Below are positions 7,590 to 27,152 of a DNA stretch of 34,738 nt, piece after piece. Positions within the stretch are counted from its first letter, which is position 1. Every line of letters starts with the position of its first letter. This stretch comes from Candidatus Thorarchaeota archaeon. GTDB lineage: Archaea; Asgardarchaeota; Thorarchaeia; Thorarchaeales; Thorarchaeaceae. The translations under genes were made by a program, and so were the position numbers. The DNA lies in contig JAUVHR010000005.1 of NCBI GenBank assembly GCA_030593165.1, positions 1-34,738 on the forward strand, read 5' to 3'. The notes under the pieces were generated by a model. It worked only from the letters and a program-made list of their open reading frames with translations, was not told the DNA's origin and ran no database searches.

Positions 7590-8219
7590 CTAATGATATC
7601 GTCCGCGTTCCCTTATCTCTTCCATTCTTGCGATTATCCTGTCTGCCGACTCCACTAGACTGTTGGTATAGCCCTCTATAGTGCTTTCGAGCATAATGTC
7701 TTGTATGTCCCAGTGTGTGGTTTCGAAGGCACGCCTTATGAGATGTAGGTCAACACCCTTCATCTCTTCAGTTGCATTCCATTCTGCAAGACCGAAGTCC
7801 ACCATCCAGAGCTTGGAAGTGGGGTCGACAATGACATTACTAGTAGTCGGGTCTCCATGAACTACATTCTTGTTGTGCAGTAGTGCAATCAACCGACCAA
7901 ATGATTTAGACAGTCTCTGCAACTCCTCTCTTGATACTTCCGTGACTAACTGTTTGAGTTGCTTGCCAGGAATGAAATCCATCATGATAGTATGCCTACT
8001 GAGATCAACTGAATATACTGAAGGTGTAGGTACACCAGCGATTCGAACAAAATTCAGCATCTTGCATTCCTTACTGGTCCTTGTGATTCTCAACAGTCTA
8101 TCAATCTCGCCGAGTAGATACGGCTTTGGTTGGCGCCATTTGACAACGAAATCACGACCCCATTGTTCGATTTGAAATATGGTTGACTCGGCTCCTAGAA
8201 ACAATACTTGATGGTTCAT
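7590..8219 (-). CDS. bud32: KEOPS kinase/ATPase subunit Bud32
   Basis: The 209-residue protein is a minimal RIO-like kinase. VVKW carries the ATP-anchoring Lys, RTSKECKML contains the alpha-C-like Glu, HGDPTTSNVIVD is the catalytic loop with its Asp, and MVDFGLAEW holds the metal-binding DFG. Bud32 acts as an ATPase driving Kae1 in tRNA t6A synthesis. I chose ATG at 8219 because it overlaps the kae1 stop as ATGA; an ATG at 8234 would add five residues. Bud32 is a separate gene here, not fused to Kae1 as in some euryarchaea. Downstream is rps15 with its own promoter. Confidence 0.93.
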   Translation of the reverse strand: MNHQVLFLGAESTIFQIEQWGRDFVVKWRQPKPYLLGEIDRLLRITRTSKECKMLNFVRIAGVPTPSVYSVDLSRHTIMMDFIPGKQLKQLVTEVSREELQRLSKSFGRLIALLHNKNVVHGDPTTSNVIVDPTSKLWMVDFGLAEWNATEEMKGVDLHLIRRAFETTHWDIQDIMLESTIEGYTNSLVESADRIIARMEEIRERGRYH

Positions 8220-9211
8220 TGTTGGGTCCTCCACACGATGTCTTGTTCATCAGTCCGCCATTTTGGCCAAATATGGGAATCAGCAGTGTTGAGTCGGTCA
8301 CCAGCCTGGAATTGAAGGATGCCAGTCCAAGCAATCATAGCTCCCTGATCGCCCGCCAAGCTTGGAGTGACTCTGTGGAATCTAATACCATGTCGTGTGG
8401 CTACACCCTGCAAGATTTCGGTTAACCGGGCGTTTTTTGCTACACCCCCTGTCAGAAGAAGCTCTTTCTTCTTTGTGTGGGCCAGTGCGCGTTCTGCTAT
8501 CTCTGCAAGCATCCCAAAGGCAGTTTCCTGAATACTGAAACATGTATCAGCGACTGAAACGCCTTCGGAGATCAGTTTTCGAGCTGCTGTGAGCATTCCT
8601 GAGTACGAGAGATCCATTCCTTTTACTGAATAGGGTAGACTATGGTACTTGTGACCACTCTTTGCCTCTCGCTCTACAATCGGACCAGCTGGAAAGGGCA
8701 TATGTATGCTGCGACCAAATGTGTCTAGCATATTGCCAATCGCAATATCAAGCGTTTCACCGAATGTGCGAAAGCGATTCCCAGCAAAGGCAATGATTTG
8801 TGTGTTTCCGCCAGATACATATACAGTCACTGGATTAGTGAATCCTGAATCAAGGCAACCAATTTCTATATGGGCAACGCAGTGATTGACTCCAATCAAT
8901 GGTACTGAAAGCTTCAATGCAATTGTACGGGCCATTGTTGCAGTTGTTCTCAAACAAGGTCCAAGGCCCGGGCCTCTAGAGAAGGCTACCAAATCAATGT
9001 CATCGGGAGTGATCCCTGCTTGATCAATTGCCTTCTTAATTATACTAGGACCGATCTCGGTATGATGGCGACTTGCTTCTCTAGGGTGAATACCTCCTTC
9101 ATCAGGAGATAGCATGTCCCATATGTTAGAATGGACTTGGCCATCAGCGGAAACAATCCCCGCACCAAATGAGTGAGCAGTACCCTCGAGACCTAAACAC
9201 ATTGCTGGCAT
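8216..9211 (-). CDS. kae1: KEOPS catalytic subunit Kae1 (t6A synthase)
   Basis: Kae1 transfers the threonylcarbamoyl group to A37 of tRNA. The 331-residue protein has the ASKHA fold motifs: GLEGTAHSFGAGIV at the N-terminus, FSRGPGLGPCLR near residue 78, the iron-binding pair H110 and H114 in NHCVAH, SGGNTQ near residue 133, and AGDQGAMIA close to the end supplying the C-terminal Asp. ATG at 9211 is used; ATG at 9202 is possible. It overlaps bud32 by 4 nt, so the two are probably translationally coupled. A weak TATA-like sequence lies near 9250. It is divergent from the LSm gene. Confidence 0.95.
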   Translation of the reverse strand: MPAMCLGLEGTAHSFGAGIVSADGQVHSNIWDMLSPDEGGIHPREASRHHTEIGPSIIKKAIDQAGITPDDIDLVAFSRGPGLGPCLRTTATMARTIALKLSVPLIGVNHCVAHIEIGCLDSGFTNPVTVYVSGGNTQIIAFAGNRFRTFGETLDIAIGNMLDTFGRSIHMPFPAGPIVEREAKSGHKYHSLPYSVKGMDLSYSGMLTAARKLISEGVSVADTCFSIQETAFGMLAEIAERALAHTKKKELLLTGGVAKNARLTEILQGVATRHGIRFHRVTPSLAGDQGAMIAWTGILQFQAGDRLNTADSHIWPKWRTDEQDIVWRTQQ

Positions 9212-12923: not shown

Positions 12924-14441
12924 TCAGTTCTGCCTATCAGCCTTCTTGATTGCCTCTAATAGACCTCCTGTACCATCACAGGGCTCTACTCTGCGTCTAC
13001 GAATCTTGGCGAAGGTGGGAACCGATACGGCCTCACCAACAAAAAGTGCCTCGCCTACTTCTAGTGTGGTTATCATATCCAGAGATGCTCTGTCAATGCC
13101 TTCACTGCTTCTGCCGATATGATCCAAGTCGTACGGATTTGTGCATCTTAGGATTGCCTGATTGCTACATTGACTCAAAACTGTGGTTGATAGCTTCACA
13201 GGCCTCTGGGAAACTAGACATAACAACGCATAGAACTTGCGACCTTCTCGAGCAATAGTTTCAATTCGGGTCTTTGGAAGAGCTATTTCATGTCTGCTCT
13301 CGGGACAGAACTGATGTGCCTCTTCGAGTACAAACAAAAAGGGCGGGATTAATCCTTGCCTTCGCTTATACAGGAGTTCACTGGCCAAATTCGAAACCAC
13401 AATTTGTTTCTTCTTCAATGAGATGAAGCCGCTTAAATCAATCAGAGTTAGCTTTCCAGGACGGACTATGTTCTCAATTTTGGGGGTGCCTTCCTTCCCA
13501 AAAAGATGTGTGTTCTCTAGGTTAATGAGCCATCCCACAAGAGCTTCGCGTGTGTTCTTACTGATAGTTTCATCAAGTCGTACAGTGTCCATTATGTCGG
13601 TAAGTGTATATCCGTTCTTTGATTTCTGTTTCATCTCAATCATTACGCGACGCAAATCTCGAAGCTGAATGGAACTCATGTCTGCTGAGAGCGCGCCTAA
13701 TGCATCTGCTGATAGTGTGTCTACTGCAATCTGGAAGTGTGATCCTCGGATATGCTCTACCTCAAATGCATCTTCTTCAAGTCCCAGTTCTGAGGGGTTG
13801 ATATCTTTTAGGTAGCTGTATTCACCATGAACGTCAACTACAACAACCCCCAATCGACCCTGGTCTTTTGGTCGTGACAGAATTTCCTCAAGAAGAACCG
13901 AAACGAAGTAAGACTTGCCAGCGCCGCTCATCGCGAGAATTGCCAGATGTTTTGAAAGAAGTCGTGCGAGGTTTGGCTGGAATGAAAGGTCGTGATAGGC
14001 TAGCTGACCTAGATTCAGTCCATTCTTCTCGTCAAGTTTAAGAAACGCAGATAGGATGGATTCATCGACTCTGCGTACCACGGCTCCGGGTGACACCGTG
14101 AAATATGGACGAATTGTCTTGTCGTTCTTCCAGAGTCCAAGTACACGTGATTTTGCAACGGTGTATTGCCAACGGTCTGTTGGAAAAATGGACCTTAGTG
14201 GTTCGCCTTTCGACTGATATTCACGGACAGCCTCAGCATGTTCGTAGTAACGATTACTGCGAATTAGGTCTTGAACGCGAGCGATGATTATACCTTCATC
14301 TGTAACTACTGAAACGAACTCACCACGTCGAGTTGTGACATCGTTGCCAGTACCCTCGGTCACAAATGAAAACTCCATTACACTAGGACCTTGGTCAGTG
14401 CAAATCACTGTTCCCAGTCTACTTGGCCGTATAGTTTCCAA
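12924..14441 (-). CDS. herA: HerA bipolar DNA helicase/translocase
   Basis: HerA is a hexameric FtsK/VirB4-like ATPase that acts with the nuclease NurA in resecting double-strand DNA ends. The 505-residue protein has an N-terminal HAS-barrel-like beta domain (about 1-100), Walker A MSGAGKS (171-177), the strand VVVVDVHGEYSYL, and Walker B FLFVLEEAHQF. The sensor and arginine-finger region is around IAREGRKFYALLCLVSQRP. It starts with TTG at 14441, supported by GGAGG within the last codons of nurA. The gap to nurA is only 6 nt, so the two are coupled. No mre11 or rad50 lies in the window. Confidence 0.95.
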   Translation of the reverse strand: METIRPSRLGTVICTDQGPSVMEFSFVTEGTGNDVTTRRGEFVSVVTDEGIIIARVQDLIRSNRYYEHAEAVREYQSKGEPLRSIFPTDRWQYTVAKSRVLGLWKNDKTIRPYFTVSPGAVVRRVDESILSAFLKLDEKNGLNLGQLAYHDLSFQPNLARLLSKHLAILAMSGAGKSYFVSVLLEEILSRPKDQGRLGVVVVDVHGEYSYLKDINPSELGLEEDAFEVEHIRGSHFQIAVDTLSADALGALSADMSSIQLRDLRRVMIEMKQKSKNGYTLTDIMDTVRLDETISKNTREALVGWLINLENTHLFGKEGTPKIENIVRPGKLTLIDLSGFISLKKKQIVVSNLASELLYKRRQGLIPPFLFVLEEAHQFCPESRHEIALPKTRIETIAREGRKFYALLCLVSQRPVKLSTTVLSQCSNQAILRCTNPYDLDHIGRSSEGIDRASLDMITTLEVGEALFVGEAVSVPTFAKIRRRRVEPCDGTGGLLEAIKKADRQN

Positions 14442-14447
14442 TTTATT

Positions 14448-15611
14448 TTAGCCTCCAAATGGATTTCTTGAACGCCTTTTTTCAAGTGATGAGTATGTGA
14501 GACCAGACAACGCTAGTAGCCGATCCATGATTAGGCGAGTTTCGGTGTTACTGATTCGTGCTCTTGTGTCAGCCTCTACAATTGGTGTCGGAAGACCATA
14601 CTCTGCATGTTGGCAAGATATCGGCAGAATCGCAGATAGAGTCTTGTCGAGATGTTTGATTGGTTCATCATCGTTTTTCCTGCCGAGGATTTCTATTCTA
14701 AGAGGAGTGTCGTCGCGAGCAGTCTTGAGGTAAGTCACCCAGATTGAGGATGCCCATGCCGCAAGATTATCAGCTAAGGAGTTGGGACTCTGTAAGATTT
14801 CCGAAGAATACCTGAATGCGAAAGTCCGTTCACCCTCCTCCAAGAAGGTGTTTAGTAGGTCACAATCACGTGATATCTTCAATAGCCACCGATAGTCAAC
14901 ACCCTGCATCATCTCAAATGCCGTGGGGTCACGAATTATATGCGGGAGTATTTCACCTAAAATGTTGACTACTCTAGTCGAACGGCTATCCTTTACAATA
15001 CCCACCAGTGTGGTCCTTTTCTTTTGTGTCGTATTGTAAAGCTGGCGATACAGTGCCATTGTTTCTTGAAACTTCTCATGCACTTCTGACCCGCGCGGGG
15101 GCCGGTCTCGGGGATGGTGAAATAGACTTCCATCCAAGAGGATTATATCTGGTTCAAACTCGTCCAGTACGGATATTGTGACTCTCAGCTCAGTTGCGAT
15201 TCGTTCAAGTGATGCTAGCTGGTCGAGTTCGATACTGGATAATGGGGATATTACAGGTTGTATAGCAGGTTCTGGGAAGGCATCAGGGAAAAAATCAACT
15301 GTAGGACCCGCTTTCGGTCCGAATTGAAACACAACTGCTATGCCACGAGTGAGTATAAGGTCCATCGACCGGAACTGTCTTCGTACTAGGCCGCCATCCA
15401 CTCCAGCAATTCGGAGACCGGATAGACTTGTTGGCACAATTCTCTTTGAGAAAGTTGTTTCGAGAAGATTTGCGGCAACCGAGGGGAATTTTCCAAGGTT
15501 GATGGAAGTTTTGAGTCGACTCATCACCCCGCCGAATTGGGTTCGTGTTACCTCGACTCTCTCTATCTCCTCAACTAGTAGGGATAGCATTTTGTCAAGG
15601 TGTCTGTCCAC
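14448..15611 (-). CDS. nurA: NurA 5'-3' nuclease
   Basis: NurA is the nuclease partner of HerA, with an RNase H-like fold and Mn-dependent activity. The 387-residue product shows the first catalytic motif IAGVDGG (Asp72), the second acidic motif IILLDGSLF (Asp160), LVGIVKDSRS near residue 205, and a late Asp in PIVEADTRARI near residue 355. The start is GTG, overlapping the TAG stop of pyrG by one base. It is followed by herA. Together pyrG-nurA-herA-orf appear to be one transcript. Confidence 0.93.
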   Translation of the reverse strand: MDRHLDKMLSLLVEEIERVEVTRTQFGGVMSRLKTSINLGKFPSVAANLLETTFSKRIVPTSLSGLRIAGVDGGLVRRQFRSMDLILTRGIAVVFQFGPKAGPTVDFFPDAFPEPAIQPVISPLSSIELDQLASLERIATELRVTISVLDEFEPDIILLDGSLFHHPRDRPPRGSEVHEKFQETMALYRQLYNTTQKKRTTLVGIVKDSRSTRVVNILGEILPHIIRDPTAFEMMQGVDYRWLLKISRDCDLLNTFLEEGERTFAFRYSSEILQSPNSLADNLAAWASSIWVTYLKTARDDTPLRIEILGRKNDDEPIKHLDKTLSAILPISCQHAEYGLPTPIVEADTRARISNTETRLIMDRLLALSGLTYSSLEKRRSRNPFGG

Positions 15612-17287
15612 TATTTGCCCCTCGCCTTCTTGTGTTCCATAGCCGCCCTTAGAAAGGCAACGTATAATGGATGAGCATTGCCTGGTCTTGATGTGAATTC
15701 AGGATGATACTGTACACCAATCCAGAATGGGTGGTTGACCAGCTCTATTGCATTGATTATCTTCTCTGTCGTATCGTAAGCAGAAACAATCATCCCCTTC
15801 GTTTCCATTCTGTTGATGTAGCGTTCGATTAGATGAAACCTGTGTCTGAACCGCTCTCTTATTATGCTTGAACCATAGATTCTATGAAGACGTGTTCCTT
15901 CTACGATTCTAACCTCTTGTGCACCTAGTCGCATCGTGCCACCTTTGTCTTCTATCATCTTCTGGTCGTCCATCAAATCGATTACAGGGTATAGACTGTC
16001 GGAATCAACCTCAGTAGTGTGAGCCCCTTGCCAGTTCATTACAGTCCTTGCAAATGCAACTGTTCCAAGCTGGCCACCATAACATATGCCCAAGAAGGGT
16101 ATTTTCTTGGTCAGAGAGATCTCGGCTGCATAAATCATTCCCTCTACTCCCCTCTCGCCAAAGCCGGGAGTGAGAAGAATACCATGAACTTCATTGAGAT
16201 CCTCTTGAAGGCACTCTCTATCACAACGCTCTTCGGTCTTGACCCATTCAATTCTAACTTGTACCCCACATTCCGCCCCAGCATGTCCCAGTGCTTCATT
16301 GATGCTCTTGTATGAGTCGCTCAATGTTGTATACTTGCCCGGCATAGCAATAACAATTTCCTCAGAGATATTTTCGAATGATTGTACTGTTTCCTGCCAA
16401 GATTCTATTTCAGGTTCCTTGTCTTTCATCTCTAGTCGCTTAATCAAAATGGTGCCAAGGTCTTGATTCTCGAAGGATAGCGGGAGCTGGTAAATCAGGG
16501 GTATGTCCGGGTTGGATATGACTTGTTCTTTGGGTATGTTGCAGAAGAGTGCTATCTTCTCTTTCGCTGCTGTTGATAACTCGGTTTCGGTACGACAGAT
16601 GATTATGTCTGGTTGGAGACCTAGTCCTTGCAGTGTTCGGGCACTGTGCTGAGTGGGTTTTGTTTTGAATTCTCCAACTGATTGCATATAAGGAACAAGA
16701 GTTACGTGCACAAACGCAGTAAGTGCGCGGTCAACCTCTCTAGCTAGTTGTCGTACTGCCTCCAGAAATGGCATTGCTTCAATGTCACCCACAGTACCAC
16801 CTATTTCCACTAGGAGGACATCTGGTCTTGGTTCCTTCTCGACAACCTCATAGATTCGTTGCTTGATTCGATTTGTGATGTGGGGTATTATCTGTACAGT
16901 GTGTCCAAGAAAACCCCCCTTTCGTTCTTCCATTATCACTGATATATAGATTTGACCGGATGTGATATTTTGTGATGGGTGTGCATCGATATCCGTGAAC
17001 CGTTCATAAGTACCAAAGTCGAGATCGATCTCAGAGATTTTGAACTCGAAGTCATCCACAGGCCTGAATGTCCATGTTTGGTCAGTGACAAAGACCTCAC
17101 CATGTTCAATTGGATTTAGAGTGCCAGGGTCAATATTCAGATACGGGTCGATTTTGATGATTCGGATGGTGTATCCACGAAACTGAAATATCTTCGCTAT
17201 CGCGGCAGTTGTGACTCCTTTCCCAATGCCTGACAGGACACCCCCTGTTACGAATACAAATCGTGTTCTATTTTGATTAGATTTCAA
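15611..17287 (-). CDS. pyrG: CTP synthase with an atypical insertion
   Basis: This enzyme converts UTP, ATP and glutamine to CTP. The 558-residue product has the N-terminal amidoligase domain with P-loop GGVLSGIGKGVT (15-26), DPYLNIDPGT, EIGGTVGDIE (161-170) and FKTKPTQHSA. The C-terminal class I glutaminase domain has the nucleophile Cys in GICYGGQ and the YHPEF His/Glu pair. Between VTD (residue 69) and DLDFG (88), where most family members have about five residues beginning DGAE, there are 18 residues, and the usual second Asp of TDDG is Gln70. The start is TTG at 17287 with GAGGT about 8 nt upstream. It is the first gene of the nurA-herA operon. Confidence 0.95.
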   Translation of the reverse strand: MKSNQNRTRFVFVTGGVLSGIGKGVTTAAIAKIFQFRGYTIRIIKIDPYLNIDPGTLNPIEHGEVFVTDQTWTFRPVDDFEFKISEIDLDFGTYERFTDIDAHPSQNITSGQIYISVIMEERKGGFLGHTVQIIPHITNRIKQRIYEVVEKEPRPDVLLVEIGGTVGDIEAMPFLEAVRQLAREVDRALTAFVHVTLVPYMQSVGEFKTKPTQHSARTLQGLGLQPDIIICRTETELSTAAKEKIALFCNIPKEQVISNPDIPLIYQLPLSFENQDLGTILIKRLEMKDKEPEIESWQETVQSFENISEEIVIAMPGKYTTLSDSYKSINEALGHAGAECGVQVRIEWVKTEERCDRECLQEDLNEVHGILLTPGFGERGVEGMIYAAEISLTKKIPFLGICYGGQLGTVAFARTVMNWQGAHTTEVDSDSLYPVIDLMDDQKMIEDKGGTMRLGAQEVRIVEGTRLHRIYGSSIIRERFRHRFHLIERYINRMETKGMIVSAYDTTEKIINAIELVNHPFWIGVQYHPEFTSRPGNAHPLYVAFLRAAMEHKKARGK

Positions 17288-17398: not shown

Positions 17399-17980
17399 TC
17401 AAGACACCGATTGAGCTACTATGCTCGCCCGCATTGCATCCTGAAAAAGTAATTGAAATGCCTCCGTGATATTGAATCCTTGGCAGGCGATGCTCTTGAA
17501 GACAGGAATAGAATTGGGAATCCTAAGGTATGTTCTAATTTTGTCTTCACCAACTGTATTAGGAAGGTCTTGTTTGTTTAGGCACACCACAACTGGTAGA
17601 AAGCGTTCTTCGTCCGCGATTACAGACATCAGTTCATTCCAGCTAGCTCTATTCTCTTCAAGTAGGTGTTCTTGAGAGTCTGCAATGAATATTACACCAT
17701 CAGTACCAACAAGAACTACTTCCCGGGTTGATCGGTAGAAGTCCTGTCCCGTCGCGGACCAGATATGGGCATTTATTCTCCAACTGTCAGAAAGCTGGAA
17801 TGGTATGGTGCCAAAATCACAAAACATAGTTCTGCCCACAGTATTTTCAATTGAAGTTAACTTGTCTGCAATATCCATTGATGAGAATAGCCACCTGATT
17901 GCGGTTGTTTTGCCGCCCATTGCGGGTCCAAAGAAGACTATTTTTACGCTGACTGTTCGGTTACCATAGTCGATTATCAA
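17399..17980 (-). CDS. Small Ras/MglA-like GTPase
   Basis: The 193-residue protein has the small-GTPase motifs. G1 is GPAMGGKT (18-25) and a Thr in NTVGRT near 48-51 is the likely G2. G3 reads SATGQ (75-79) without the usual Asp, as in the MglA-type TxPGQ. G4 is NKQD (135-138) and G5 is SIACQG (163-168). There is no C-terminal Cys prenylation motif. It is the last gene of an operon with a protein of unknown function (13-nt gap) and a tandem LC7 protein. MglA GTPases pair with roadblock/LC7 proteins as their regulators, so the three probably form a GTPase circuit. Confidence 0.88.
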   Translation of the reverse strand: MIIDYGNRTVSVKIVFFGPAMGGKTTAIRWLFSSMDIADKLTSIENTVGRTMFCDFGTIPFQLSDSWRINAHIWSATGQDFYRSTREVVLVGTDGVIFIADSQEHLLEENRASWNELMSVIADEERFLPVVVCLNKQDLPNTVGEDKIRTYLRIPNSIPVFKSIACQGFNITEAFQLLFQDAMRASIVAQSVS

Positions 17981-17993
17981 TCTACGACTCCTC

Positions 17994-18914
17994 CTATGTT
18001 CCCCACATGCTATCTACCCAAGCTCCCAGACCTGAGAGTGCTCCTCCTTTAACACAGTCTGAGAAGTCCTCATGCCATTCGGCTCTAATGAAGGATATTA
18101 GCTCTGGCAGACTTCCCCCTTCCCACCCAACAGCCTCATACAGATTCCTTTCAGTGAGTGTGGTTGAAGCCCCCAGTTCTCTTGCAAGTCTTATCCTTGA
18201 TAGAAGAGTAACAGCCCTGCGTGCTGCATGTACATAGTTGCTTATCTCTTCAATAAACATGTCATGAGTAATCTTCTCTGATTCATCGTCAAGCTTTAGT
18301 ATGGCATTCAAGATATGGTCAGGAACTTTCACACCACGTAGCGACTTCTGTAGTAGTCTTCGTATTCGCTCAAGTGACTGCCTCTTTCTAGTGAGTATCT
18401 TACTAACAATTCGTTTCTCTACATCAAGACTGCTCTGACATTCCTTTGCAAGTGAGAAAGTCACTGTTGATGGTGAGGTGACTCTGAGGATTCCACAATT
18501 TGGAGAGCACTGCAGAACCTTTGTGAGTACTTCCTGAAGTGTCTGGATATTGAGGTTTGTTCCAAGAACCTTGCGTCCAAGTGGGGCTGCAATTATCCAG
18601 CCCGAAAAATGGTTGATTCTCTCTAGGGCTAGACCTAAGTTCGAAGAAAGGCAACAGACAACTGTTCGACTAACTTCGTAGTTGTGTTTTTCTTCCTCCC
18701 AGACAGAGAGAAGTTCACTTTCAGCAGTAAAATCCCTCCAGAAAACAATCTTGTGTCTATGTGAACTGAGAACAGTCACACTCTCGGTGATGTCTTCCAC
18801 AAGCTCAATGTCTTCTCCCGTCACAAGAATTGGCTGTCTGCCAAGTACAGAATTAAGGAGTAATGGGAACTGATCGTCCATCAATTCGATTAGTTGTAGA
18901 ATCGAGTATGTCAT
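17994..18914 (-). CDS. Unknown protein between LC7 protein and GTPase
   Basis: I do not recognise this 306-residue protein. The first half (about 1-150) is alpha/beta, with strands such as QPILVTGEDIEL, HKIVFWRDF, RTVVCCLSS and SGWIIAAPLG. Its spacing resembles a degenerate P-loop or receiver-like fold, but there is no GxxxxGKT. The second half is helical and basic (RIVSKILTRKRQSLERIRRL), with a helical stretch containing NYVHAARRAVTLLSRIRLA that could be a lid or winged-helix-like region. Its ATG overlaps the stop of the LC7 gene by 4 nt (ATGA) and it is followed after 13 nt by the GTPase. This context makes a GTPase regulator, effector or adaptor the leading idea. Confidence 0.65.
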   Translation of the reverse strand: MTYSILQLIELMDDQFPLLLNSVLGRQPILVTGEDIELVEDITESVTVLSSHRHKIVFWRDFTAESELLSVWEEEKHNYEVSRTVVCCLSSNLGLALERINHFSGWIIAAPLGRKVLGTNLNIQTLQEVLTKVLQCSPNCGILRVTSPSTVTFSLAKECQSSLDVEKRIVSKILTRKRQSLERIRRLLQKSLRGVKVPDHILNAILKLDDESEKITHDMFIEEISNYVHAARRAVTLLSRIRLARELGASTTLTERNLYEAVGWEGGSLPELISFIRAEWHEDFSDCVKGGALSGLGAWVDSMWGT

Positions 18915-19858
18915 GGTTTTCTCCTCGCCAAAATGAGGCCACCTTCAGAGCTCGCGGAAAGCAGTAACTCCTGTAGGTCCTTTGGAACTGCGGGTTTGGT
19001 TACTGATGCGGAATGGAGAACTCTTCGAATCTCGTCAATATAGTGTTTCAGAAGAAGTCTCATCAGACCAAGCTTTTGACTATTTTTATCGACCCAGAGA
19101 CTGAAGACACCATTTGGTACTGCGTAAATAATATGCCGTGTCTTCTCTGTTTCGCACATAACTGTCTGGAGCGAACTGTTACGAAGTGTTCTAACAACAC
19201 GCTCGGAGGAGTCATGGAGAGCAAATGACATGGCGGCTAGTCTATCGTTCGTGAACCCTTCTAGAGATACTCTAACACCTCCACTCAGAGCAAGAAACAC
19301 CGAGTCGATACTTGGAATGCTGTCATGTATCTGCTTCAGAAGCGTTCTAAGAGTCAATGATTGAGAACGGTCAAGTGATATTAATGATCGAGTAAGTGTA
19401 TAGTGATTTTCCTCGCCATCTGAAACTGTGAAGCCACTCAGTACTCTTTGGGTTTCATCATGACTATAAGAGCGTAGAGGAGGCAGTCTTCCATCTATGT
19501 GCTGCCTCAGAAGAAATGATATCCTTGAGAGATTATCCTTCATTTCTATGAAAAGGGCGGCTAGATTGACTCGCGGGGCTGTGGTGATAGCAAGGAAGTA
19601 ACTGGGATCATTGGGGAGTGATGCAAGAAAGACCTTTGATGTATTAGATTCCATCAAGAGAAACTTGAAGGTGCCATGTATCAGTCGAGCAACACCGAAT
19701 ATTGCACAAGTAGCTGAAGCGACTGCAAAGACCTCATCCTTACTGAACCAGACACCAGCACTGGCAACAGGCAGTCCATCTTTCTGGACTAGGATTACAT
19801 TCTCCACCCCTGTAATCATCTTGATGTTTTGTAGTGTATCATGGAGGTCTTCTGTCAC
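18911..19858 (-). CDS. Tandem roadblock/LC7-domain protein
   Basis: The 315-residue protein contains two roadblock/LC7 folds. The first (about 5-115) is clear: GVENVILVQKDGLPVASAG, AVASATCAIFGVARLI, a strand with KVFLASLPND, FLAITT, and a helix LAALFIEMKDNLSRI. The second (about 175-285) repeats the layout, with IDSVFLALSGGVRVSL, RLAAMSFALHDSSERVV and FSLWVDKNSQKLGLMRLLLKHYIDEIRR. A charged linker joins them. Roadblock proteins dimerise and bind small GTPases such as MglA, Rag or Rab. It starts with GTG and leads the operon with the 306-residue protein and the GTPase; a TATA-like TTAAATA lies 40-50 nt upstream. Two copies in one chain could act as a built-in pseudo-dimer. Confidence 0.82.
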   Translation of the reverse strand: MTEDLHDTLQNIKMITGVENVILVQKDGLPVASAGVWFSKDEVFAVASATCAIFGVARLIHGTFKFLLMESNTSKVFLASLPNDPSYFLAITTAPRVNLAALFIEMKDNLSRISFLLRQHIDGRLPPLRSYSHDETQRVLSGFTVSDGEENHYTLTRSLISLDRSQSLTLRTLLKQIHDSIPSIDSVFLALSGGVRVSLEGFTNDRLAAMSFALHDSSERVVRTLRNSSLQTVMCETEKTRHIIYAVPNGVFSLWVDKNSQKLGLMRLLLKHYIDEIRRVLHSASVTKPAVPKDLQELLLSASSEGGLILARRKP

Positions 19859-25969: not shown

Positions 25970-26096
25970 GTTACCTCAGTTACAAATCATTTTCTCATCA
26001 GAATATTCATTGGAACACGTGTTCTAAGTTTCCTCTTGTGGGTGAACGAATAATACAAGTATCTGAAACGTAACCTTGGGATGAGGTTTCTCGTTG

Positions 26097-27152
26097 ATGC
26101 CTACCGATTTGGTTTTTCATGATGTTTTCACACAACACATCTTGACGCCTGGACATCCAGAAGCGCCTGATCGACTCACAACAGCAATTGATTACATTAG
26201 GAATACGGAACTGATGGAAACCGGTAAGGTCCGTCTGTTCTCACCGAAGCCTGCGGATATTAGAGAGATTATACCATTGCATAGTCAGGATTATCTTGAG
26301 GAGCTACGGGTTAAGAGTCAAGCTGGAGGCGGGTTTTTCACACCGGATACAGCATCAAATGAATATACGTACAAGGCGGCCCTAACTGCGGCAGGAGGTG
26401 GAATTGCTGCAGTCGACCGTGTACTTAACAACTTGACAAAGAATGCATATGTGCTTTGTAGACCCCCGGGACACCATGCAGAACGTTCAAGGGCATTTGG
26501 TTTCTGTTTCATAAACAATATAGCGGTTGCTGCAAGACATCTAATCAAATATAGAGGGCTTGAGAGAGTCATGATTGTGGATTATGACGCGCATCATGGG
26601 AATGGAACCCAAAACGCATTCTACTCCACTAATCAGGTTCTCTACGTCGGCATTCACCAAGATGGTAGAACACTCTTCCCCGGCTCTGGGTTTCCAGATG
26701 AGCTGGGAACTGGAGAAGGGGAAGGGTACAATGTCAATCTCGCGATGTATCCTGGTGCTGGTGATGTGTCTTTTGGGATTGTGTATGATGAGATTATTTT
26801 ACCAATAGCTGATTCATTCAGACCCGAATTCATACTTGTGTCCGCAGGTTTTGATAGCCATTTCTCAGATCCTTTGACATCTCTAGGTTTGACCCATGAT
26901 GGATTGGCAAGCATGAATAGGAAACTCAACTCATTGGCCTCTAGTATATCGGATGAGAGAATCGTTTTCTTCCTTGAAGGTGGATATAACTTGGCCGCGG
27001 TAGGTGCTGGATCCCAGAATCTAGTTGAGGAATTGGCAGGAGCAGATGTAACTGATTTTGGGGAAACTAAGGGTGAAGACAATCGGACCATAGAATACAC
27101 TGAGTCGTTGGTGAGTTTCTTACGCGAGAATCTGGAAGGTGTATTCTTCTAG
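26097..27152 (+). CDS. Histone-deacetylase-fold amidohydrolase
   Basis: The 351-residue protein is a class II-like arginase/deacetylase fold enzyme. Key motifs are HPEAPDRL, the active-site His pair in RPPGHHA (residues 122-127), DYDAHHGNGTQ with zinc-binding Asp and His, SAGFDSH with the third zinc ligand, and FFLEGGYN with the transition-state Tyr. Family members deacetylate proteins, polyamines or small metabolites; the substrate here cannot be read from sequence. ATG at 26097 is used with GATGAGG about 12 nt upstream. Its stop overlaps the hel308 stop by 4 nt (convergent). Confidence 0.92.
   Translation: MPTDLVFHDVFTQHILTPGHPEAPDRLTTAIDYIRNTELMETGKVRLFSPKPADIREIIPLHSQDYLEELRVKSQAGGGFFTPDTASNEYTYKAALTAAGGGIAAVDRVLNNLTKNAYVLCRPPGHHAERSRAFGFCFINNIAVAARHLIKYRGLERVMIVDYDAHHGNGTQNAFYSTNQVLYVGIHQDGRTLFPGSGFPDELGTGEGEGYNVNLAMYPGAGDVSFGIVYDEIILPIADSFRPEFILVSAGFDSHFSDPLTSLGLTHDGLASMNRKLNSLASSISDERIVFFLEGGYNLAAVGAGSQNLVEELAGADVTDFGETKGEDNRTIEYTESLVSFLRENLEGVFF

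Follow-up and report, generated by a model that had tools for sequence, protein, structure and literature searches.

A candidate GTPase-switch operon of Asgard archaea combining an MglA-family GTPase, a tandem roadblock protein and a DENN-like protein

Analysis of a Candidatus Thorarchaeota contig identified three consecutive genes that probably constitute an Asgard operon dedicated to a GTPase switch, in which an MglA-family GTPase is accompanied by a one-chain double-roadblock (LC7) regulator and a longin-less protein provisionally placed in the DENN superfamily. The window, which is the whole stretch of 34,738 nucleotides that was analysed, derives from a metagenome-assembled genome of 3.26 Mb, and the named relatives of this genome are nearly all Candidatus Thorarchaeota.

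Gene layout and conservation of the module

All three open reading frames were found on the minus strand, with transcription running from the LC7 gene through the middle gene to the GTPase gene (Table 1), in the position and order given in the preliminary description of this DNA. The ATGA stop/start overlap reported there between the first two genes was likewise read from the sequence, and the same -4 overlap is present in nearly all Thorarchaeota loci, while 13 bases separate the middle gene from the GTPase gene.

Table 1. Coordinates of the genes, domains and motifs of the module (window positions unless a locus is named)
Feature	Position	Strand	Remarks
Tandem roadblock/LC7 gene	18911..19858	-	315 aa, GTG start, first in operon
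Roadblock domain 1	19499..19852	-	residues 3-120; complete with C-terminal helix
Roadblock domain 2	19013..19369	-	residues 164-282; complete with C-terminal helix
LC7/middle stop/start overlap ATGA	18911..18914	-	plus strand reads TCAT
Middle gene	17994..18914	-	306 aa; DENN superfamily (provisional) by profile and fold
cDENN-like alpha/beta domain	18450..18902	-	residues 5-155; without P-loop; AlphaFold model
All-helical C-terminal half	18075..18425	-	residues 164-280; d-DENN-like by position and helix content only
Conserved C-terminal tail	17997..18041	-	residues 292-306, ends WVDSMWGT
MglA-family small GTPase gene	17399..17980	-	193 aa, TTG start
G1 P-loop GPAMGGKT	17906..17929	-	residues 18-25
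G2 Arg50-Thr51	17828..17833	-	equivalent to MglA Arg53-Thr54; invariant in 28 sequences
G3 SATGQ	17744..17758	-	residues 75-79; without Asp, catalytic Gln retained
G4 NKQD	17567..17578	-	residues 135-138
Two-gene paralogues, one Asgard family	L181:3494-5033, L183:275-1798, L185:4137-5664		

The order of tandem LC7 protein, middle protein and GTPase was kept in every locus with both flanks readable (77/77), across 11 families of the Asgard phylum; of the 80 loci sampled, 77 had the genes consecutive on one strand and the other three were cut by contig ends. The module is thus not restricted to one genome; it is conserved, and the earlier proposal that the GTPase module has a third, fixed partner held. 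Middle proteins were detected in 66 of 99 relatives and, by profile search, in 115 of 228 Asgard genomes, with full-length members in 11 families and identity falling as low as 21%. As the same order was retained in many loci whose middle proteins are only 21–33% identical, the arrangement is not due to chance, and as the module is also found in chromosome-level records (e.g. CP070761 and CP070658), it is not an assembly artefact. The tandem LC7 profile matched 114 of 393 genomes, every one of them Asgard (approximately 228 Asgard genomes in the sample), and these were almost the same set as the genomes possessing the middle protein; outside the Asgard phylum, the sampling consisted of the non-Asgard relatives among these 393 genomes and concerned the LC7 profile only.

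Elsewhere in the window, adjacent genes for a HerA-type DUF87 helicase and a NurA nuclease (12924-15611) lie beside a CTP-synthase-like gene that was named by eye (15611-17287). A TsaD/Kae1 gene with a gene for a RIO/Bud32-like kinase after it (7590-9211) and a gene for a histone-deacetylase-family protein (26094-27152; Pfam 2.2e-90) were also observed.

The tandem roadblock protein and the GTPase

The claim that the first gene encodes two roadblocks was supported in three ways. Pfam Robl_LC7 matched the first half of the protein (1.6e-10), the halves proved homologous to one another when aligned with hhalign (P 3.3e-5), and the AlphaFold model (pLDDT 78) showed two complete roadblock folds. 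Foldseek searches with this model returned Thor-RB, MK-D1 Roadblock3, LAMTOR2/3 and MglB; the match of domain 1 was to Thor-RB (7f8m), while profile matches of domain 2 were to 9jue, cvnB5 and MglB. The tandem LC7 protein is effectively a one-chain counterpart of the MglB dimer. The MglB dimer binds MglA asymmetrically in a 2:1 ratio (PMC11016934), and two unlike roadblock domains in one chain would fix an MglB-like asymmetry covalently.

Judged from its sequence, the module GTPase is a member of the MglA family. Searches of its profile against solved structures placed MglA of Thermus and Myxococcus at the top (~1e-41 to 1e-42), with 8.8e-43 for Thermus thermophilus MglA in comparison to 2.8e-14 for the best Rab, and the beta-0 stretch at the N terminus also aligned with MglA. 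The guanine-binding motifs are conserved among module GTPases (G1 GxAMxGKT; G4 NKxD), and Arg50, Thr51 and Gln79 were invariant across 28 sequences; in the known system, MglB positions MglA Arg53 and Thr54 (PMC11016934). A phylogenetic tree of the GTPases set Rab-like genes clearly apart and gave bacterial MglA no settled place among the module GTPases. The C-terminal roadblock domain that is a trait of Rag/Gtr proteins was absent from the GTPase, which has a single domain in its 193 residues.

Wuichet and Sogaard-Andersen described Group 1 MglA as having a conserved Arg and the G3 motif TVPGQ, with Groups 2-5 lacking the Arg and having GTPGQ (PMC4316618). The G3 motif of module GTPases is mostly [ST]ATGQ, which is neither of these; the Asgard proteins keep the Arg but, judged by this G3, lie outside all five published MglA groups. 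The absence of the usual G3 Asp that had been noted earlier was correct (SATGQ), but it is not an oddity, as membership of the MglA family, of which it is a trait, explains it. A second, distinct GTPase with the G3 motif YTVAGQ was observed in one family near the 3' end of the module on the opposite strand (L084:2376-3035, L089:3896-4576 and L092:3700-4386; family f2).

The succession of a roadblock gene, a gene of unknown kind and one for an MglA-type GTPase recalls the Streptomyces conservons, where cvnB, cvnC and cvnD likewise stand in a row (PMC4316618), and cvnB5 is among the matches of the second roadblock half. That the module is a conservon-like signalling cluster whose middle protein stands in for DUF742 is nevertheless highly improbable, as no adjacent histidine kinase and no DUF742 match was found, and as the module Arg is a trait of MglA Group 1 whereas CvnD belongs to Group 2, which lacks it (PMC4316618).

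Variants of the module were found in two families. Second copies in family f9 (loci L181-L185) consist of tandem LC7 and GTPase genes 6–7 bases apart with no middle gene, and their GTPase branches with a module GTPase of the same family. The roadblock-GTPase pair is thus the core of the module, to which the DENN-like protein is an added arm. Second module copies were also observed in family f2 (L116:4254-6137 and L187:4561-5562), either as roadblock and GTPase genes with the middle gene down to an 89-residue match or as a roadblock gene alone, and look like decay after duplication.

Probable DENN-superfamily membership of the middle protein

The 306-residue middle protein could not be assigned in the preliminary description, and this agreed with our family searches, as no Pfam or NCBIfam family reached its curated cut-off. 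No clear unrelated function emerged from the searches run, and the middle-protein profile alone had no match in the PDB. Weak Pfam and NCBIfam matches of the window protein, including PI3/PI4-kinase and RecX, were discarded (E > 0.05, relatives without them).

The AlphaFold model of the middle protein (pLDDT 89, pTM 0.86) consists of an alpha/beta domain with main strands at residues 29-33, 53-58, 83-88, 106-111 and 141-147, followed by an extra strand (150-155) and a helical half, for which there was no d-DENN sequence match. The C-terminal tail, which comes after an invariant EW, was of low confidence in this single-chain model. In the description by Zhang and colleagues, DENN is an alpha/beta sandwich of five strands with a d-DENN domain after it, and has a minimal P-loop NTPase topology without a nucleotide site (PMC3521125); the middle-protein fold of five main strands and helices agrees with this description. 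Foldseek gave no match with E < 1e-3. Among the 50 matches listed, DENN chains had TM-scores of 0.30–0.39, with DENND1A (0.39) and DENND1B (0.35) the highest TM-scores of the list, and the C9orf72-complex chain 7mge_C (TM 0.34) had its highest probability (0.89).

An independent route to DENN that does not depend on the AlphaFold model came from Asgard proteins in which longin and DENN domains are joined. Weak matches of the middle-protein profile in other Asgard families proved to be proteins of 356–366 residues with a longin-like N-terminal and a DENN-like C-terminal part; longin-DENN proteins, mostly of 320–450 aa, were observed in several Asgard families (L097-L100, L149-L172 and L189-L194). 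Pfam Folliculin matched 8 of the 22 members of the longin-DENN family, with 27.7 bits against a cut-off of 23.3 for one listed member, and a C9orf72-like match was found in 6. In the PDB, the family matched 8yqg, a 'Longin domain' entry, and next SMCR8, where the match lay at the start of DENN (E 0.016). Over whole genomes, 39 of 224 Asgard genomes and no control genome (n=14) had a Pfam Folliculin match above cut-off. These Asgard longin-DENN proteins are related to folliculin, C9orf72 and SMCR8.

Alignment of the middle-protein profile to the longin-DENN profile (hhalign 93%, P 3.3e-7) fell exactly on the DENN start of the longin-DENN proteins and was strongest at middle-protein residues 6-67, the significant similarity spanning approximately 62 residues only. 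Its score of 57.6 compares with values of at most 16.9 for column-shuffled controls (n=30). The joint profile of both groups reached human DENND10 at the same boundary with an E-value of 0.43, which is suggestive only. Additionally, the second-best match of Pfam Folliculin_C over 224 Asgard genomes was a middle protein (G155, locus L105; E 5.4e-4), while none was found in the 14 control genomes. No Pfam DENN-family model was above cut-off on any middle protein, and Pfam DENN (PF02141) was above cut-off nowhere in the 224 Asgard genomes; its sub-threshold matches at the expected place were only those to longin-DENN locus L100 and to middle proteins G082 and G087, the other ORFs examined behind PF02141 matches being noise. 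The longin (u-DENN) domain is absent from the middle protein, whose chain starts at the DENN boundary. Taken together, the profile and fold comparisons make it very probable, though still provisional, that the middle protein belongs to the DENN superfamily.

Alternatively, the middle protein may descend from a P-loop NTPase of AAA+-like type, with a helical lid, and have degenerated to the loss of its nucleotide site; its resemblance to DENN would then be one of topology only. AAA+ ATPases did head the Foldseek list on E-value, and DENN itself has that minimal NTPase topology (PMC3521125). We consider this quite improbable, as the AAA+ chains superposed at TM ~0.2–0.3 with rmsd mostly 14–22 Å, below the range of the DENN chains, no P-loop motif was present in any of 40 middle-protein sequences, and the sequence matches were to Folliculin, SMCR8 and DENND10 rather than to AAA+ families. 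An outright AAA+/P-loop identity, which a reading of the C-terminal half and the Foldseek E-values had brought up, was rejected on the same poor superposition, missing P-loop and contrary sequence evidence.

Possible mechanism and comparison with known systems

In the mechanism that we propose, the MglA-family GTPase would be the switch, and the double roadblock would replace the MglB homodimer as its regulator. The roadblock protein would most likely act in an MglB-like manner, holding switch I and thereby placing Arg50, Thr51 and Gln79 for hydrolysis; the conservation of these catalytic residues suggests that the roadblock arm is an indirect GAP of MglB type. The DENN-like protein most likely binds the roadblock protein, the GTPase or both, so that the roadblock and DENN-like proteins may amount to a split DENN module with two longin-like roadblocks in one chain and DENN in another. 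All three would presumably assemble into one complex.

The DENN assignment fits a GAP, GEF or effector alike. Eukaryotic DENN proteins are either Rab GEFs or GAPs of Arf and Rag (FLCN-FNIP, C9orf72-SMCR8 and Avl9; PMC12803157), hence either sign is possible for the DENN-like arm. Exchange (GEF) is one possibility for this arm and a part as GAP helper or scaffold an equal one, with effector or localiser only slightly less likely. As a reading of the whole module, it is somewhat unlikely that the DENN-fold protein is an effector or localiser that reads the GTP state and links the MglA switch to a target at a membrane or on the cytoskeleton, the double roadblock alone supplying GAP and exchange activity. 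This would accord with the roadblock-GTPase pair persisting in one family where the middle gene is missing from it, and with the report that MglB alone is both GAP and GEF (PMC11016934), but the ATGA overlap of roadblock and middle genes and the invariant gene order suggest that the middle protein is a regulator and not a target downstream, and the DENN relationship points in the same direction.

The components of the module are known kinds of part. Tran and colleagues reported MglA-like GTPases and roadblocks in Asgards but stated that the GTPase genes of MK-D1 do not generally share operons with genes for roadblock or longin proteins (PMC10933270). In the open papers searched, we found no report of a DENN domain in Asgard archaea or of the combination of MglA GTPase, double roadblock and DENN-like protein. 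According to the account of DENN proteins published in 2012, longin domains descend from MglB-like roadblocks, and longin and DENN were joined in the eukaryotic stem (PMC3521125). We tentatively raise the possibility that the operon is a surviving split DENN precursor, in which DENN arose in Asgards as a partner of roadblock-MglA; if so, later fusion to a longin would have led to the Asgard longin-DENN proteins and then to the folliculin, C9orf72 and Rab-GEF types. Asgard DENN-like domains, whether fused to longin or beside an MglA-roadblock pair, would shift part of DENN assembly into archaea and make the assembly of DENN modules testable with small soluble proteins. No roadblock-MglA operon was found near longin-DENN genes in the loci read, and the module roadblock profile did not match the longin-DENN profile, so that direct descent of these longins from the module roadblocks is without support.

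In comparison to the MglA-MglB switch of Myxococcus and Thermus, the Asgard module has in common the intrinsic Arg finger beside the G2 Thr, the catalytic Gln, the beta-0 strand and a GTPase working with a roadblock partner. It differs in that its roadblocks are fused in one chain while MglB is a homodimer of single-domain chains, in its G3 motif (mostly [ST]ATGQ as opposed to TVPGQ), and in being archaeal with a third, DENN-like gene. Streptomyces conservons (cvnA-D) similarly cluster a roadblock gene with those for an unknown protein and an MglA-family GTPase but include a histidine kinase and DUF742, which the Asgard module lacks. The Asgard longin-DENN proteins and the middle protein have the motif at the DENN start in common (P 3e-7), but the former, unlike this longin-less protein, carry longin and DENN in one chain. 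Like eukaryotic DENN modules (DENND1, DENND10, folliculin-FNIP, C9orf72-SMCR8 and Avl9), in which the combination regulates Ras-superfamily GTPases, the Asgard module would bring together longin/roadblock-fold and DENN alpha/beta domains; unlike them, it has its DENN-like domain in a separate longin-less chain beside a tandem roadblock, and its GTPase is of MglA type and not Rab, Rag or Arf.
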